Shown here in pieces: positions 3,135 through 27,760 of a stretch of 44,898 bases of DNA. Positions within the stretch are counted from its first letter, which is position 1. Every line of letters starts with the position of its first letter. The notes beneath the pieces were generated by a model. It had not been told where the DNA came from and ran no database searches. It worked only from the letters and a program-made list of their open reading frames with translations. The DNA is taken from IMG/VR virus record IMGVR_UViG_3300039191_000672, positions 1 through 44,898 of that record; one strand, given 5' to 3'. Made by a program: the position numbers and the translations under genes. The stretch comes from a virus.

Positions 3135-3350
3135 ATAGAACTAATAAAAAATGTTCCTTATTTTATTTATAAATTCTTTTTATTTCTTGTAATGGCTGAA
3201 TTTATATTAAACAAAGCGCAATTTTTAAATCAAGTGTTAAATTATCCGGATATGCTGCAAGAAAAAGCGGCGCGTAATTTATCAAGAGAATACCTCATAA
3301 AACTAATTGGTGGAATATTAATTTTAAGATTTTTGTTAATAAAACTTTAA
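3135..3350 (+). CDS. Small membrane protein, possible ATA start
   Basis: About 71 residues with a hydrophobic N-terminal segment (YFIYKFFLFLVMAEFIL) and a second at the C-terminus (LIGGILILRFLLI), so probably two membrane passes. The start is odd. The clear ribosome site GGGGTGA (3123-3129) is five bases before ATA at 3135. The upstream TTG (3114) and GTG (3126) have no properly spaced site, and the first internal ATG is at 3192. A non-canonical start is the simplest fit, but TTG 3114 cannot be excluded. Confidence 0.5.
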   Translation: MELIKNVPYFIYKFFLFLVMAEFILNKAQFLNQVLNYPDMLQEKAARNLSREYLIKLIGGILILRFLLIKL

Positions 3351-13914: not shown

Positions 13915-15387
13915 ATGGCTTATCAACACGGTGTATATATTACAGAACAAGCAACTTCTTTAACACCTCCTATACAGGTTGACAGTGCTATACAGGTTAT
14001 TGTAGGTACAGCACCAGTAAACTTGGTCGAAGAACCGCAGGCTGCTGTTAATAAACCACTTATTGCTTATAGTTACGCCGAAGCAGTAAGTAAGGTTGGC
14101 TATTCTGATGACTTTGAAAATTACACTATATGCCAGTCCATTGATGCATCTTTTAGAGTTTTTAATGTTGCACCAATTGTACTGATTAATGTTCTAGATC
14201 CTGCAGAACATAATATAGCTGTAACAGATGAAGTGCATGCAATCGTAAATAATGAAATTGAAATTGAAGAAGAAGGAATAATGTTAGATGAAAACTTTTC
14301 TGTCAGCAGCGAAGATGGAACAACAGATTATGTAAAAGATAACGATTATAAATTATCTTTTAATGATGATGGGTTTGTTGTATTAGAAGTTATTGAAGGT
14401 GGACAGATAGAAACTGATGGAGAAACATCACTAAACTTAGGTTTTACAAAGTTAGATCCTTCAGCTGTAACTAAAGATGATGTAATTGGTGGTTATGATA
14501 TTGCTACTGGTAAATATAAGGGCTTAGAAAATGTTGAACAGGTATTTCCTCAATTATCTGTTATACCTGGCACTATTCTGGCTCCCGGTTGGAGTCACAT
14601 GCCATCAGTAGGTATCGCAATGACTTCAAAAACAAAAGAAATTAATGGATCATTTAGCTGCCAGGCGGTTTTAGATATTGACACAAATGATGTTGACGGA
14701 GCTGCAGCTTATAGTGATGCGGCTGGTTGGAAAAATGACAATAGCTACACTGATAAAAATAATATTGTAGCCTGGCCAAAAGCTATGGTTGGAGATAAAA
14801 CATATTATTTTAGTGCTCTTATCGCGCCGTTAATGGCTTTTATTGATAACCAAAATAAAGGTGTTCCATTTGTCTCTCCATCTAATAAGCAAGCTAAAAT
14901 TACGGCTACTGTTTTGGATAACGGAGAAGAAGTATATTTGGACCAGGTGCAGGCTAATCTTTTAAATAGTAATGGTATTATAACTGCTATTAATATGGAT
15001 GGTTGGAAAGCTTGGGGTAATAGAACTGGAGCTTATCCATCAACTTCTGATCCTAAAGATGCCTTTATATCCGTCAGGAGAATGTTCGACTGGTGGGGAA
15101 ATACATTTATTCGGACATATTTCCAAAAGGTTGATGATCCAACCAACTTAAGATTGGTTGAAAATGTTGTGGATAGCGAAAATATCAGAGCAAATGGTTA
15201 TAAAGCGAAACAGCAGATAGCTGGAGCTAAGATTGAATTTAACCAAGACGAAAACCCATTGACTGATATTATTGATGGGAAAATAGTATTCCATCAGTAT
15301 TTAACACCTTACCCACCGGCTAGATCTATCACAAATATTCTAGAGTTTGACCCTTACGCTCTGCAAGCAGCTCTTGGAGGTGAATAA
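13915..15387 (+). CDS. Contractile tail sheath protein
   Basis: 490 residues. MAYQHGVYITEQATSLTPP is the standard sheath N-terminus, followed by the sheath core, and a C-terminal part with YLTPYPPARSITNILEFDPY like the P2/Mu sheath end that interlocks subunits. It makes this a myovirus. The segment around 120-170, rich in EIE and DGTTDYVKDNDY, is an inserted surface domain common in Firmicutes phage sheaths. GGAG before the ATG. Confidence 0.93.
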   Translation: MAYQHGVYITEQATSLTPPIQVDSAIQVIVGTAPVNLVEEPQAAVNKPLIAYSYAEAVSKVGYSDDFENYTICQSIDASFRVFNVAPIVLINVLDPAEHNIAVTDEVHAIVNNEIEIEEEGIMLDENFSVSSEDGTTDYVKDNDYKLSFNDDGFVVLEVIEGGQIETDGETSLNLGFTKLDPSAVTKDDVIGGYDIATGKYKGLENVEQVFPQLSVIPGTILAPGWSHMPSVGIAMTSKTKEINGSFSCQAVLDIDTNDVDGAAAYSDAAGWKNDNSYTDKNNIVAWPKAMVGDKTYYFSALIAPLMAFIDNQNKGVPFVSPSNKQAKITATVLDNGEEVYLDQVQANLLNSNGIITAINMDGWKAWGNRTGAYPSTSDPKDAFISVRRMFDWWGNTFIRTYFQKVDDPTNLRLVENVVDSENIRANGYKAKQQIAGAKIEFNQDENPLTDIIDGKIVFHQYLTPYPPARSITNILEFDPYALQAALGGE

Positions 15388-22980: not shown

Positions 22981-23538
22981 ATGGCCCAGTTTAATAGTTT
23001 AACAATTACTCAAGATGGTTTAGAGCTCCAATCAAAAGCTCAGACTGGTACTACTCTAAATTTTACCAGAGCTGCAGTCGGAGATGGAGAATTGCCAGAT
23101 GGCACAAATTTGATTGATTTAACTGCCTTAATAAATGAAAAAGAATCACTTAATCTTACCGATTTATTTGTTGATGGCAGCGGGAATGCAAGAGCCAGGG
23201 CTACTGTTTATAATCAAGGCTTAGATACCGGGTTTTATATTAGAGAGATTGGACTTTTTGCTAATGACCCGGATAAAGGCGAAATTTTATATTGCGTAGC
23301 AAATGCCGGGCAGTATGCTGACTTTTTACCTGCCGGTACTGGATCAGATATTGTAGAGTCAACTCTTGATCTAGTAACTATTGTAGGTAATGCAGATAAT
23401 GTAACAGCTCAGATAGATGAAAGTCTAACTTATGTCACAGTTAAAGATATTAATGATAAATTAGATTTAGAGACAGCTGATCATCAGTATAAATTAGTAG
23501 TTATTGATGGTTCGCTTGTTTTAGAGGAGGTATTATAA
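22981..23538 (+). CDS. Tail-collar/fibre base protein
   Basis: 185 residues. The phage tail-collar fibre domain (DUF3751 type) fills most of it: GLELQSKAQTGTTLNFTRAA, VGDGELPDG and GFYIREIGLFANDPDKGEIL. In P2-like phages this is the N-terminal domain of the H fibre, which plugs into the baseplate. Here it is a separate short protein, so the receptor-binding part must come from the genes that follow, including the DGR target. GGAGGTG before ATG. Confidence 0.88.
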   Translation: MAQFNSLTITQDGLELQSKAQTGTTLNFTRAAVGDGELPDGTNLIDLTALINEKESLNLTDLFVDGSGNARARATVYNQGLDTGFYIREIGLFANDPDKGEILYCVANAGQYADFLPAGTGSDIVESTLDLVTIVGNADNVTAQIDESLTYVTVKDINDKLDLETADHQYKLVVIDGSLVLEEVL

Positions 23539-23856
23539 ATGAAAGGATTTCCAAAGAAACTTAATTCAAAAGCAGATTATGAAAACATAGTCGATGATTT
23601 TGGTTACACTCAAAAAATTAAGGAAGCTTATCAAGCATTGTTAGAAACTGATAAGCATTATGTGTTTGATAAAAAATTGGCAGCAGAAACAGATAGAACT
23701 GGCCCACTCCCTAATTATAAAGTTATGAAAGAAGATGATCAGGAAACTGAGACAGTGAAAATTGTTCAGTACAAATTAGTAGATAACCCTGACTCAAAAT
23801 TAAAAGAGTTAGGATTTACAGAAGCCGAAGTTCAAGGGGTGATTGACCAATGCTAA
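23539..23856 (+). CDS. Hypothetical fibre-region protein
   Basis: 105 residues, starting right after the collar gene with GAGGAGGT upstream, and overlapping the DGR target by seven bases. It contains DFGYTQKIKEAYQALLETDK and ends with ELGFTEAEVQGVIDQC, a helix like those that close small adaptor proteins. No known domain. Its place between fibre base and diversified adhesin suggests an adaptor or chaperone, which is inference. Confidence 0.65.
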   Translation: MKGFPKKLNSKADYENIVDDFGYTQKIKEAYQALLETDKHYVFDKKLAAETDRTGPLPNYKVMKEDDQETETVKIVQYKLVDNPDSKLKELGFTEAEVQGVIDQC

Positions 23857-24887
23857 GTGTAGTAGGAGCAGATAGTCCTGCTTTTTATAATGCAGAGGGA
23901 AACATAGAAAAGACAGCCGGAGTTCAGGGAATAGATATCCCGGCCCTGGCATTAAGAATTAATAGACAGAATCTAAAAATTGAATCAGCATCAGCACTAA
24001 CTGCCGCAGACAATGATGGCAGTTTTTCTAGTTTTGCGATGGGTACTGATTATTATATCTATGCATGTCAGCCAGCTGATGGAATTGAACCAGATTTTGT
24101 ACTTTCAGCTAACTCTACTTATCCAGATGCAATACCTTCTGGTGTTACTCCCAGTGCTGATAATACTCGCAAAATCGGTGGTTTTCACTATGGCCGGGTA
24201 AGGAATAGTTCAACAGTTTCTGATGTATCAGAGAGTATTGTTCCGAACTCAGTCTGGGACCTTGTTAATCGTCCGAAATGTTCCCCTGAGGGGATGGCTA
24301 AGGTCGGTAACCTATGGGTTGATATTTATCTGGCCGGCGATGATGGCAACGGCGGTGTTGAGTCTAAGTATAACGCTACACCTATCACCGGTACAGAAGG
24401 ACTTAGTTGGTATAGTTTCGCTGAGAGATTTGCTAAGGTAGATAAGAGAATGGCATCAATGTCAGAATGGACAGCGTTAGCTCAGGGCAGTCCCCAGGGT
24501 AATGATGGTGATAACGTCAATGCTTGGTCTAATACATCAAACAGTGGTAGAGCATCAACTGGTACTGTAACAAATGCTATCAGTAATTATAATATTGTTG
24601 ATTGTGCCGGTAATGTTTGGGAATGGCTTGATGAAGTTTCAATCAGACAGGATTCTACAAGTTGGCAGTGGTATGATCCCGCAACTGACTTCGATGAAAC
24701 AATGGAGTCCGGATGGGACCAGCTTGGTGATATGTATCTCCCTAATGCAGATGGCCTTTCAGCTTTCCGCGCCGGTGGCTATTGGGCTGATGGTGTTCAC
24801 TGTGGTGCTCGTGCGTTGGGCCTGAGCCGCAGGCCTTGGCACGTGAACTCGTATATCGGGTCTCGTGGTGTCTGTGATCCTCTGTAA
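23850..24887 (+). CDS. DGR target: diversified lectin-fold tail-fibre protein
   Basis: 345 residues. The C-terminal half has the C-type lectin/FGE-sulfatase-like fold used by DGR targets: MASMSEWTALAQGSPQG, then DCAGNVWEWLDE (about 250-262), and FRAGGYWADGVHCGARAL to the end. The last 41 residues are the variable repeat plus four residues. The N-terminal half (about 1-130) is a probable trimerising or attachment part without a motif I know. It should display the variable residues on the receptor-binding face of the tail fibre. GGGGTGA ribosome site; overlaps the previous gene. No transmembrane segment. Confidence 0.9.
   Translation: MLSVVGADSPAFYNAEGNIEKTAGVQGIDIPALALRINRQNLKIESASALTAADNDGSFSSFAMGTDYYIYACQPADGIEPDFVLSANSTYPDAIPSGVTPSADNTRKIGGFHYGRVRNSSTVSDVSESIVPNSVWDLVNRPKCSPEGMAKVGNLWVDIYLAGDDGNGGVESKYNATPITGTEGLSWYSFAERFAKVDKRMASMSEWTALAQGSPQGNDGDNVNAWSNTSNSGRASTGTVTNAISNYNIVDCAGNVWEWLDEVSIRQDSTSWQWYDPATDFDETMESGWDQLGDMYLPNADGLSAFRAGGYWADGVHCGARALGLSRRPWHVNSYIGSRGVCDPL
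24764..24876 (+). repeat. DGR variable repeat (VR)
   Basis: 113 bp matching the template repeat at 25290-25402 at all 91 non-adenine positions. Twelve of the 22 template adenines are changed (six to G, counted with others to C or T). In protein terms nine of ten adenine-bearing variable codons differ. It ends 11 bases before the end of the target gene; the fully identical 3' part (ATCGGGTCTCGTGGTGTC) is where mutagenic homing would start. Confidence 0.95.
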
Positions 24888-24931
24888 TTCGTAATTTGAT
24901 AATCTGTCTTTTTATTAAGGTGTGAATATTT

Positions 24932-25267
24932 ATCAAAAATCTAACAATACATCAAAAAGTATATGATCTTATGGTTTGGTTTTTCCCGATCGTAGATAAC
25001 TTTCCAAAGTATGAAAAATTTGTACTTTGTACACAGATTAAGAACTCTGTACTTGATATCTCAAAAATTATTATTGAAGCAAATAAAACCAGAGGTAGCA
25101 AAGTTAGATTTCTACATCGGATTGATGTCAGACTTGAACAGTTAAGAATGCTAATTAGGTTTGCTCATGAAAGAAAATATCTAAACCATTCTAAATATGA
25201 AAATGTATCTAAAAAAGTTGATGAAGTCGGCCGAATGCTTGGTGGCTGGATAAAATCATGTGAATAA
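24932..25267 (+). CDS. avd: Avd, DGR accessory variability protein (non-canonical start)
   Basis: About 111 residues. Four-helix-bundle family: VYDLMVWFFPIVDNFPKYEK, then SKVRFLHRIDVRLEQLRMLI and EVGRMLGGWI, matching the helix pattern and the VGR-LG-W end of the Bordetella phage Avd. It forms a basic pentamer that binds the RT and template RNA. The first ATG (24971) lies inside helix 1 and has no ribosome site. AAGGTG at 24916-24921 points to ATA 24926 or ATC 24932; the stop TGA at 24923 closes the frame, so no ATG/GTG/TTG exists before 24971. Confidence 0.85.
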   Translation: MKNLTIHQKVYDLMVWFFPIVDNFPKYEKFVLCTQIKNSVLDISKIIIEANKTRGSKVRFLHRIDVRLEQLRMLIRFAHERKYLNHSKYENVSKKVDEVGRMLGGWIKSCE

Positions 25268-25289
25268 AATTTTGGGGTTAAGAGCGTTT

Positions 25290-25402
25290 TTTCCACGCCG
25301 GTGGCAATTGGAATGATGGTGTTCACTGTGGTGCTCGTGCGTTGAACCTGAACAACAAGCCTTGGAACGTGAACTCGAATATCGGGTCTCGTGGTGTCTG
25401 TG
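25290..25402 (+). repeat. DGR template repeat (TR)
   Basis: 113 bp, 23 bases after the avd stop. Translated in the target frame it has eight AAC/AAT codons, all but one changed in the VR. Invariant residues use codons without A (CGT, GGT, GCC, TGT, TTG), although arginine in this genome is mostly AGA. It is copied into cDNA by the RT with errors at adenines and replaces the VR. Confidence 0.95.
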
Positions 25403-25583
25403 CTCTTCATGCAAAAATCTTTCAGACAGTAGTGGTTACGGCCACTGCTGCAGTGTTTCTAGTAATGAGGAACAGGCTTTTAATCCCTGCTGAGATACTT
25501 TTTTAAGTCAATCCAGCAAAAAATTTAGATTGCTGGCCAGGCAGTAAGTATTGAAAGATAGAAAATTGTCACAGTCAGCGACT

Positions 25584-25615
25584 GCCCGTTCTCATTTGAG
25601 CGGGCTTTTAATTTT
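25584..25615 (+). terminator. Terminator-like hairpin between template RNA and RT gene
   Basis: GCCCGTTC pairs with GAGCGGGC (eight pairs with one G-T), loop TCATTT, then TTTTAATTTT. It would end the template RNA here and lower expression of the RT, whose start is 32 bases downstream. Confidence 0.6.
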
Positions 25616-25646
25616 CACCCAAATATAGAGAAAGTGGTGAGATAAT

Positions 25647-26759
25647 ATTCCAAAAAAATTTAAGAATTCATATCCAAAAATATACGATTTTGAGAACCTA
25701 TACATTTCTTATGAAAATGCTAGAAAATCTAAACGATATACTAACCAGGTCCTTAAATTTACCAATCAACTAGAAAGCAATTTAATTAATCTACAGAACC
25801 AACTTATTTGGAAAGAGTATTTACCTGGCGAATATCATCAATTTTATGTCTATGAACCTAAGCAGCGTTTAGTTATGGCACTTCCTTTTGAGGATAGAGT
25901 GGTCCAGTGGGCGGTATATAGAAATCTAAACCCTATATTCGATAAGACTTTTTATGAGCATAGCTGCGCCTGTCGGATTGGCAAAGGTACTCATTATGCA
26001 GCGGACCAGCTGCAGCACTGGATGAGAAAACTTGATAGAAGTCCAGGAGAAACTTATTATCTTAAAGCTGATGTTGCAAAATATTTTTACCGAATAGATC
26101 ACAGAACTCTTTTTGAAATTATCAAAAGAAAGATTAGCTGCAGAGATACCTTAGAGTTGATCTGGAAGATAATTAAAAAAGATGATGGTGAATTTGGAAT
26201 ACATCTCGGCGATCATTACTTTGAACAAGGGAAAATTAAGGGGATAGGAATCCCGATCGGTAATTTAACCAGTCAGCTTTTTGCAAATGTTTATCTCGAC
26301 TTCATGGATAAGTTTATAAAGCATAATCTAAGAGCTAAACACTACGTCAGATATATGGATGATTTCGTTATTCTGGGAAAACCAAAGAAAGAACTACATA
26401 CTATCAGACAGGAAATAGAAATATTTCTTGCTGATTACTTAAAACTTGAACTTAACAACAAAACTACTGTTGATAATATATGGAATGGTATAGATTTTTG
26501 CGGATATGTTACTTATCCACCATACCGAAAATTGAGAAAGAGTACAAAAAGAAAACTAAAAAGACGGCTTAAATATCTTCAAAAGAAGTACTATAAAGAG
26601 GAGGTGGGAATAGATGAAATAAATGCCAGTGTACAAAGTTACTTGGGAATATTGAAACATTGTGATAGTCATAATCTCACAATGTCAGTTATTGGCCAGT
26701 TGGAAGATGAAATACTTAATCAACTAGATTTAGAGGACGCTCTAGAACAAAGAAGTTGA
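25647..26759 (+). CDS. DGR reverse transcriptase (ATT start)
   Basis: About 370 residues. Motif A ADVAKYF with D142, the DGR signature IPIGNLTSQ (202-210) and the active site YMDDF (236-240) are all present. The conserved N-terminus (PKKFKNSYPKIYDFENLYIS, then PGEYHQFYVYEPKQR) lies upstream of the first ATG (25875), so that ATG cannot be the true start. TGA at 25638 closes the frame; only GAT AAT ATT CCA AAA follow, and ATT 25647, six bases after GGTGA, stands where relatives have the ATG of MPKK. It copies TR RNA with errors at adenines, together with Avd. Confidence 0.93.
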   Translation: MPKKFKNSYPKIYDFENLYISYENARKSKRYTNQVLKFTNQLESNLINLQNQLIWKEYLPGEYHQFYVYEPKQRLVMALPFEDRVVQWAVYRNLNPIFDKTFYEHSCACRIGKGTHYAADQLQHWMRKLDRSPGETYYLKADVAKYFYRIDHRTLFEIIKRKISCRDTLELIWKIIKKDDGEFGIHLGDHYFEQGKIKGIGIPIGNLTSQLFANVYLDFMDKFIKHNLRAKHYVRYMDDFVILGKPKKELHTIRQEIEIFLADYLKLELNNKTTVDNIWNGIDFCGYVTYPPYRKLRKSTKRKLKRRLKYLQKKYYKEEVGIDEINASVQSYLGILKHCDSHNLTMSVIGQLEDEILNQLDLEDALEQRS

Positions 26760-26822
26760 TGCAATATACAGATAAGCAAATACTTTTGCCTTGTAGTGGG
26801 GCTTGTTTTGAGGTGAAAACAC

Positions 26823-27284
26823 GTGAATGCAAAATGGAGACCGTTTACAGACGAAATAATTTATTATTGGAACAAATTTTTTGAGCATACATTTATAAAA
26901 AGTTTTCTCGCGGTGGGGGGCACATTGCTGACTATGATATTTGGAGATATGAATGCAGCTATGCAGGGTTTTTTAATTTTGTTGGCGGCAGATTATACAA
27001 CAGGAATTATAAAAGCAAGTAAAAAAGGTCAGTTATCAAGCTGGATGTCCCGGAAAGGTTGGGGGAAAATAGCAACATATTCAATCGTTATTTCTCTTGG
27101 CCATCTTGTAACTCAAATAGGAATGGCCGGCATGAGAGATTTTGTGCTTTTATGGGCCGGAGCTACTGAAGCAATTTCAATTTTAGAAAATTGTGATGAA
27201 CTTGGTGTTGCTATACCTGAATTCATGCGCGAGAAACTTTTAAGAACAAAAGAAAATAAATTTGGAGAGGAGATAAAACAATGA
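26823..27284 (+). CDS. Phage holin (phage_holin_4 type)
   Basis: 153 residues, GTG start after GAGGTGA. Hydrophobic segments at about 27-45, 47-65, 86-103 and 105-125, with the family motif AADYTTGIIKASKKGQLSSW between them. It makes the holes that let the amidase reach the wall at the end of infection. Its stop overlaps the amidase ATG. Confidence 0.87.
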   Translation: MNAKWRPFTDEIIYYWNKFFEHTFIKSFLAVGGTLLTMIFGDMNAAMQGFLILLAADYTTGIIKASKKGQLSSWMSRKGWGKIATYSIVISLGHLVTQIGMAGMRDFVLLWAGATEAISILENCDELGVAIPEFMREKLLRTKENKFGEEIKQ

Positions 27285-27760
27285 AAGTGGTAGATGTAAG
27301 AGATAAATTACCAACTCATAATTCAAAAAAATATCCAACCAGACCAATTTCAGCTATATATTATGTAGCAGTGCATCATAGCCTTACAGATAATATGCCT
27401 GGAGGTGAAGATATTTATGCTTTTGCCAGGTATCATGTAAATAATTTAGACTGGCCGGGCATTGGATATCACTATGTAATTGATGCGGATGGAACTGTTT
27501 ATAAAACTAATGCAGCCAAAACAAAAAGTTATCATGTAGGAAAACATAATCAGTCAGCATTAGGTGTCTGCCTGGTTGGTGATTTCCGTGACTATGATCC
27601 AACAAGTAAACAGTACAAGGCGCTTGTTGATTTATTGAAAACATTGCAAAATGCTTATGGTATTACTACTGAAAACATCAAAGGTCACAGTGAATTTGAA
27701 GGTTATCAGTGGAAAAAGTGTCCGGAAATAGACATGGACCAGTTAAGAAAAGAGGTTTAA
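27281..27760 (+). CDS. Endolysin: N-acetylmuramoyl-L-alanine amidase (Amidase_2)
   Basis: 159 residues, one PGRP/amidase_2 domain like T7 lysozyme. Zinc ligands: VAVHHSL (His near 32), GHSEF (His near 139) and KCPE (Cys near 148); GIGYHYVIDADGTVY is the conserved core strand. It cuts the bond between muramic acid and the stem peptide. There is no signal peptide and no separate wall-binding domain, so release depends on the holin just upstream. The missing binding domain is usual for endolysins of outer-membrane hosts. Confidence 0.93.
   Translation: MKVVDVRDKLPTHNSKKYPTRPISAIYYVAVHHSLTDNMPGGEDIYAFARYHVNNLDWPGIGYHYVIDADGTVYKTNAAKTKSYHVGKHNQSALGVCLVGDFRDYDPTSKQYKALVDLLKTLQNAYGITTENIKGHSEFEGYQWKKCPEIDMDQLRKEV

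Follow-up and report, generated by a model that had tools for sequence, protein, structure and literature searches.

Near-cognate AUU and AUC codons as probable starts of the mutator genes in a phage DGR

Diversity-generating retroelements (DGRs) are deliberate mutators, and little is known on how their dose is limited. Homing in the Bordetella BPP-1 element requires Avd as well as the reverse transcriptase (RT). The gene order and parts of that element (mtd, avd, template repeat, brt) are the same as in the locus described here. The brt gene is described as devoid of a clear ribosome binding site, and addition of such a site raised activity 100-fold in E. coli (excerpts of PMC12875486). As for non-canonical starts in general, they are inhibited by an excess of IF3 (excerpts of PMC2268962), and AUU and AUA starts of S. 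aureus, accompanied by a strong Shine-Dalgarno (SD) sequence, give about 10% of the AUG level in poor medium (excerpts of PMC13009471). Both ingredients, DGRs and starts at AUU, AUC or AUA (AUH), were already known, and no earlier report of their combination was found: AUH-started DGR genes are not mentioned in the excerpts covered of the literature on DGR start codons, Halanaerobium DGRs and phage AUU initiation (PMC6642488, PMC3240598, PMC3091744, PMC9769972 and PMC10612066 included). They would be hidden from one DGR survey, because ATG was taken as the sole start in its ORF step (excerpts of PMC6642488).

The DGR locus and the start regions of its genes

The window, i.e. the whole stretch of DNA analysed, is a viral record of 44,898 bases, in which the DGR spans positions 23850-26759. 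It is composed of an Mtd-like target gene (PF21916), avd, a template repeat (TR) and an RT gene. Its features are listed below; "clade" refers to the group of related RTs defined in the next section.

23850-24887, plus strand: target gene, Mtd-like tail protein, with an ordinary ATG (PF21916, 8.7e-19; start canonical at the same codon in 10/10 homologues)
24764-24876, plus strand: variable repeat (VR), 3' end of the target gene, located by TR/VR pairing
24917-24922, plus strand: avd SD, AAGGTG, read from the sequence
24932-24934, plus strand: candidate near-cognate avd start codon, ATC (ATT in L009, L018 and L019, ATA in L010, TTG in 20 other clade loci)
24932-25267, plus strand: avd gene, from the predicted start ATC 24932 (NCBIfam Avd, 1.2e-35; ATC found at -7, the commonest Avd start place)
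25290-25402, plus strand: TR (113 bases against the VR, with 12 mismatches, all at TR adenines)
25636-25640, plus strand: RT SD, GGTGA (GTGGTGA invariant in 17 aligned loci; SD of 5-6 bases in 19/19 distinct RTs)
25647-25649, plus strand: candidate near-cognate RT start codon, ATT, replaced by ATC in some relatives (0/31 clade loci canonical; 15 ATT and 4 ATC in 19 distinct RTs)
25647-26759, plus strand: DGR RT gene, from the predicted start ATT 25647 (Met1 of bRT, 8ub7, on the same codon)

The RT is matched by the RVT_1 profile (2.3e-20) and by the solved Bordetella bRT (8ub7, E 1.2e-52), and is of the DGR type. Avd matches bAvd (1.2e-32) and the NCBIfam Avd model NF033474 (1.2e-35, above the family cut-off), and is identified as the DGR accessory protein; a sequence search with Avd for a solved relative gave none at E 0.001. 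An Rfam search of positions 23400-27400 produced no match.

In the raw sequence, the RT frame is closed upstream by a TGA at 25638-25640 and is open over 25641-26759; its first ATG, GTG or TTG is the ATG at 25875, residue 79 of the frame. The sequence-only reading had proposed that this stop and the conserved N-terminus leave ATT 25647 as the start, with GGTGA six bases upstream. The SD is found there, at 25636-25640, and the proposal is corroborated by the alignment with bRT, which begins with bRT residue 3 against window residue 5, so that Met1 of bRT corresponds to ATT 25647, an Ile codon. In addition, a canonical codon lies within a range of 9 to 18 codons upstream of the DFENL motif in 188 of 214 distinct DGR RTs; in 171 of these its place is exactly -13 or -14. 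ATT 25647 is located at -14. It is the likely RT start by these comparisons. Repair of the frame by an indel was also considered: a shift at the A7 run or nearby opens only a short GTG GTG frame, with no other ATG, GTG or TTG close by.

The avd frame is similarly preceded by an in-frame TGA (24923-24925) and open over 24926-25267, and its first ATG, GTG or TTG is the ATG at 24971, residue 16. The commonest Avd start lies 7 codons before the Q of the QKxYD motif. In the window this place is occupied by ATC 24932, 9 bases after the SD AAGGTG, whereas ATA 24926 is found at -9. Of the two starts between which the sequence-only reading had left the choice, ATC 24932 is the likelier, as judged from this modal position; the absence of a canonical codon was confirmed for both.

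A third gene had also been suspected of an ATA start:

3135-3350, plus strand: small gene, possible start ATA 3135 (TTG 3114 and GTG 3126 also in frame)

The codon is ATA in the window and ATC in six full-length relatives, with the SD AAAGGRGTGATC. TTG 3114 and GTG 3126, however, are in frame and open in the window and in all six relatives, and nothing forces the choice of ATA.

Start codons in related DGRs

Relatives were collected by scanning IMG/VR and GTDB genomes. The set includes 31 loci, the window among them, in which the RT is at least 67% identical and has a visible N-terminus; L012, a fragment devoid of the N-terminus, was excluded. All named hosts are Halanaerobiales, namely the isolate Halanaerobium saccharolyticum MA284_T2 (L017, L019), of a salt-loving genus, and a Halanaerobiales MAG (L018). 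At the RT start position ATT is found in 26 loci and ATC in 5, ATG, GTG and TTG in none; of the two elements of the isolate, L017 has ATT and L019 ATC. After removal of identical sequences, 19 distinct RTs remain, forming one clade (SH-aLRT 100), with 15 ATT and 4 ATC. Along the clade tree the third base changed between T and C at least 3 times, and never to G.

In 67 of the 70 outgroup RTs of the same tree, a canonical codon occupies one of the positions -15 to -12, and of the distinct RTs outside the clade 186 of 195 have one near the start place (9-18 codons before DFENL). Survey cases outside this range include L240, L246, L248, L259, L332, L015 and L054, where the canonical codon lies further up or down or the alignment is ambiguous, and L085, which is misaligned. 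In the same 214-RT survey, 17 clade RTs have no canonical codon in range, and L009 and L089 have one a few codons upstream: a TTG two codons before the RT start in L009 (and L019), a GTG three codons before it in L089. Both lie too near the SD and appear to be poor start candidates. Just 5' of the RT start, the window leader is two bases longer than that of L002, and several relatives carry an in-frame TGA; for these reasons the leader is taken as non-coding.

An SD of 6 bases precedes the AUH codon in 17 of the 19 distinct RTs, and one of 5 bases in the other two (the window and L010). By comparison, when all ATH triplets of seven clade loci were scored, SDs of at least 6 bases were found before 1.9% of them, and of at least 5 bases before 5.6%. 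The RT codon shows three sequence features of an AUH start: no canonical codon at the required N-terminus, an SD at proper spacing, and AUH kept against AUG. The refuting results named by the sequence-only reading (a normal start in relatives, an indel restoring one, different N-termini) were looked for, and none was found.

A start at avd was scored in the 28 clade loci with an Avd call, as ATC (4), ATT (3), ATA (1) or TTG (20, at -7 or -10), and never as ATG. In L009, L018 and L019, ATT opens the avd frame directly after a TGA. The comparison with related DGRs, proposed by the sequence-only reading as a check, thus gives AUH for RT in 31/31 loci, and for avd 8 AUH, 20 TTG and no ATG. AUH starts on both mutator genes, as originally claimed, are seen in the lineage of the window; elsewhere in the clade avd has TTG, though never ATG, and these 20 loci count against a uniform AUH start of avd.

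The RTs of L006-L008, L017 and L086-L088 are 78-87% identical to that of the window, yet sit with another Avd type; the Avd of L006-L008 is only 33-35% identical to the window's. The presence of different Avd types in one RT clade points to exchange of avd between DGRs.

Further candidates were found among other DGRs. In L032 (a Halanaerobiales MAG) and L396, a G-rich SD is followed at the RT start by ATA GCC AAA ACA; the same column reads ATG GCA/GCT AAA/AAG AC in L397-L399 and ATG ACA AAA ACA in L374, a second element of the L032 genome. An alternative GTG of L032 is absent in L396. L374 is an ordinary ATG-started DGR within the Halanaerobiales; its TAG lies near the natural gene end, which rules out a broken gene. 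In another Halanaerobiales genome, L356 encodes a DGR RT 31-34% identical to the window's, which begins ATT ATT CCT AAA AAA with no canonical start, and its TR/VR pair has 22 of 25 mismatches at adenines; its relatives have GTG (L384, L385) or ATG (L386-L389, L391, L392). Outside the order, the RT of L136, whose tree sister L025 is Paenibacillus sanguinis, has ATC/ATT, and the avd genes of L146 and L116, with ATA, look like further AUH cases. From these alignments, AUH starts would have arisen separately in L032/L396 and in L356, and probably also in L136.

Two side observations concern the same regions. A Pro codon (CCN) follows the AUH codon in three RT lineages (ATTCCA/T or ATCCCG in the clade, positions 25647-25652 of the window; ATTCCT in L136 and in L356), and other possible non-canonical starts are ACG for avd in L023 and L117 and GTA for RT in L128.

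Element activity, controls and alternative explanations

In 27 of the 31 clade loci a TR/VR pair of 105-123 bases was obtained, in which the two repeats differ at 5-18 TR adenines and at 0-2 of the remaining positions. The unpaired loci are L004 and L098, which have no upstream DNA, and L095 and L011, with short matches only. The first score used favoured mismatches at A; a neutral score, applied to 10 loci, gave the same picture, and with it the window repeats pair over 119 bases with 12 mismatches at A and 2 others. Seven RT pairs were computable and gave dN/dS ratios of 0.02-0.06, dS reaching 1.3; two deeper pairs are saturated. A degenerate element is ruled out by the adenine-specific differences and the low RT dN/dS, which likewise argue that the weak starts must be used. 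As homing is active and needs RT, and by the BPP-1 example Avd too, both genes would be translated without a canonical start. Initiation at near-cognate AUU, AUC or AUA codons, as the sequence-only reading had it, is thus strongly supported by the relatives, the signs of activity and the controls given below, all of them comparisons of sequences.

The explanation considered probable is that the mutator genes use SD-placed AUH starts, AUU for RT and most likely AUC for avd, at which initiation would be weak, perhaps checked by IF3, and selected for low dose. It can also be supposed that the AUH codons are real starts kept by inertia rather than by such selection. The main RT clade has a single origin, so that its 31 loci are not independent; one origin suffices for all of them, inertia could account for the conservation, and avd alternates between AUH and TTG. 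Against this, synonymous sites saturate (dS up to 1.3), the third base underwent its T/C changes without ever becoming G, although G makes up 13% of clade fourfold sites, and separate AUH origins are seen in L032/L396, L356 and probably L136. Inertia is, on balance, rather unlikely.

A second alternative is that AUH starts are in wide use in the host clade, the DGR being unexceptional. The infC start is ATC in H. saccharolyticum and in one Halanaerobiales MAG and ATT in Caloramator, and a third phage gene possibly has ATA/ATC. To evaluate the starts of the other phage genes, homologues of the window genes were taken from clade loci, from the loci surrounding the gene at 13915 and from a further set of loci; 3 of 36 families had been set aside beforehand as false ORFs (two internal starts, avd 24971 and RT 25875, plus the shadow ORF 29032). 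In the 33 remaining families, 133/133 homologues have a canonical start within six codons, 125 of them at the exact codon, against 0/18 exact and 2/18 within six codons for RT, and 3/16 and 11/16 for avd (Fisher tests, p <1e-15, kinship being ignored). The host control covered 309 ORFs of at least 120 codons in 400 kb of H. saccharolyticum chromosome; 14 SD-supported ATH codons precede the first canonical start, of which 13 adjoin it, one codon before, and the remaining one is the ATC of infC. An earlier background test over all SD-like sites of the host, a very noisy one, had shown no excess of ATH at SD spacing. With infC alone among 309 ORFs and all other phage homologues canonical, wide use of AUH starts is very unlikely.

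Production of RT by frameshift or slippage from a short upstream frame, such as GTG GTG in the SD region with a -1 shift at the A run, is scarcely credible. In loci of the L002 type there is an open frame, GTG GTG ATA ATA TTC CAA AAA AAT, and a -1 shift into the RT frame would be possible at A AAA AAT; the GTG frame is, however, closed by TAA 25643-25645 in the window and by a stop before the slippery run in the L090 group, and the ATH codon and its SD are kept where it is closed. Least probable of all are starts at the first internal ATG of each gene (24971 for avd, 25875 for RT), which are the calls of a gene finder limited to ATG, GTG and TTG and give shorter proteins, given that ATG 24971 is unconserved (ATA in L018, ACT in L094 and L101), while an RT from 25875 loses 76 conserved residues, alignable to bRT from residue 3 onwards, and purifying selection acts on this gene.

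Mutator dosage and comparison with known systems

In the favoured explanation, the SD at normal spacing would place AUU (RT) and most likely AUC (avd) as starts, and the initiator tRNA would decode them as fMet. Initiation would reach only some per cent of the AUG level, up to about ten, with IF3 discriminating against the codon as it does for infC, and selection would keep the start weak since no more than trace amounts of an adenine mutator would be required. A very low mutator level as the purpose, which the sequence-only reading had proposed, is plausible, with indirect support from the persistence of weak codons while synonymous sites saturate, from the small fraction of AUG given by the S. 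aureus starts cited above, and from the Bordetella element, where initiation of the RT is weak too. Two elements upstream of RT, a terminator-like hairpin and a possible masking of the SD, would act in the same direction:

25584-25615, plus strand: terminator-like hairpin (25584-25605) and T-rich tail, between TR and RT (in 28/31 clade loci, with compensatory changes)
25615-25619, plus strand: TCACC, able to pair with the RT SD GGTGA, possible SD masking (pair conserved, no covariation, weak z-scores)

In these 28 loci 35-44 bases separate the GC-rich hairpin from the RT start; many have a T-rich tail after the hairpin, the T tract being degraded in the L090 group. Compensatory pairs include CCCG/CGGG, CCTG/TAGG and CCCA/TGGG; no hairpin was found in L011 and L089, and L010 has a different one. 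The hairpin was seen by examining each locus separately and was missed by RNAalifold on the RT leader, where the arms are off register between groups. Being placed between TR and RT, it may terminate the template RNA, in which case RT would rely on read-through. Downstream of it, these 28 loci also share a CACC that can pair with the SD; covariation is absent and the folding z-scores are unremarkable. In L010 a strong hairpin encloses both the SD and the AUU. Hairpin and SD pairing would fit an RT held low at several steps.

Outside the clade, SDs of at least 5 bases precede RT less often than other genes of the same loci: 45% versus 57% of cases where GC is low (one-sided p 0.023) and 29% versus 44% where it is high (p 0.0012), with crude starts for the comparison genes and related loci. 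RT SDs are therefore only modestly weaker there, and no weakening was seen for Avd SDs against other genes of these loci.

A wider proposal, which is possible but doubtful, is that selection has repeatedly put near-cognate starts on the mutator genes of Halanaerobiales DGRs, so that RT and the mutagenesis rate would depend on the IF3-to-ribosome balance by which the AUC-started infC of the host is also governed, with the hairpin and the SD masking as further locks. Mutation supply would then follow the growth state of the host. A conserved near-cognate RT start would amount to a one-codon dosage control, tying mutagenesis to initiation fidelity through IF3, and the phage example would join a short list of bacterial genes with conserved AUU, AUC or AUA starts. 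There is also a practical side, as gene finders limited to ATG, GTG and TTG truncate or miss such genes: RT is listed from 25875 and avd from 24971, and surveys or constructs based on such annotation lose the 76 N-terminal RT residues.

Of the known systems, infC resembles the DGR RT in its AUH start, good SD and long conservation, with ATC in the host itself. Its weak start is reportedly part of an autoregulatory loop; the DGR differs in this respect, its products playing no part in initiation. Another parallel is offered by cvfC1 (AUU) and ccpN (AUA) of S. aureus, in the Bacillota, with conserved AUH starts and extended SDs and, in reporters in poor medium, about 10% of the AUG output (excerpts of PMC13009471); they are cellular genes measured by ribosome profiling, whereas the DGR starts are deduced from comparison of loci. 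The DGRs of Bacillota phages, for example BalMu-1 (50% RT identity), have homologous RT and Avd and the same start region, but ATG starts. ATG also starts brt and avd of BPP-1, unlike the genes of the window. In BPP-1 initiation of the RT is weak through the missing clear ribosome binding site (excerpts of PMC12875486), whereas the window DGR combines a good SD with a weak codon.
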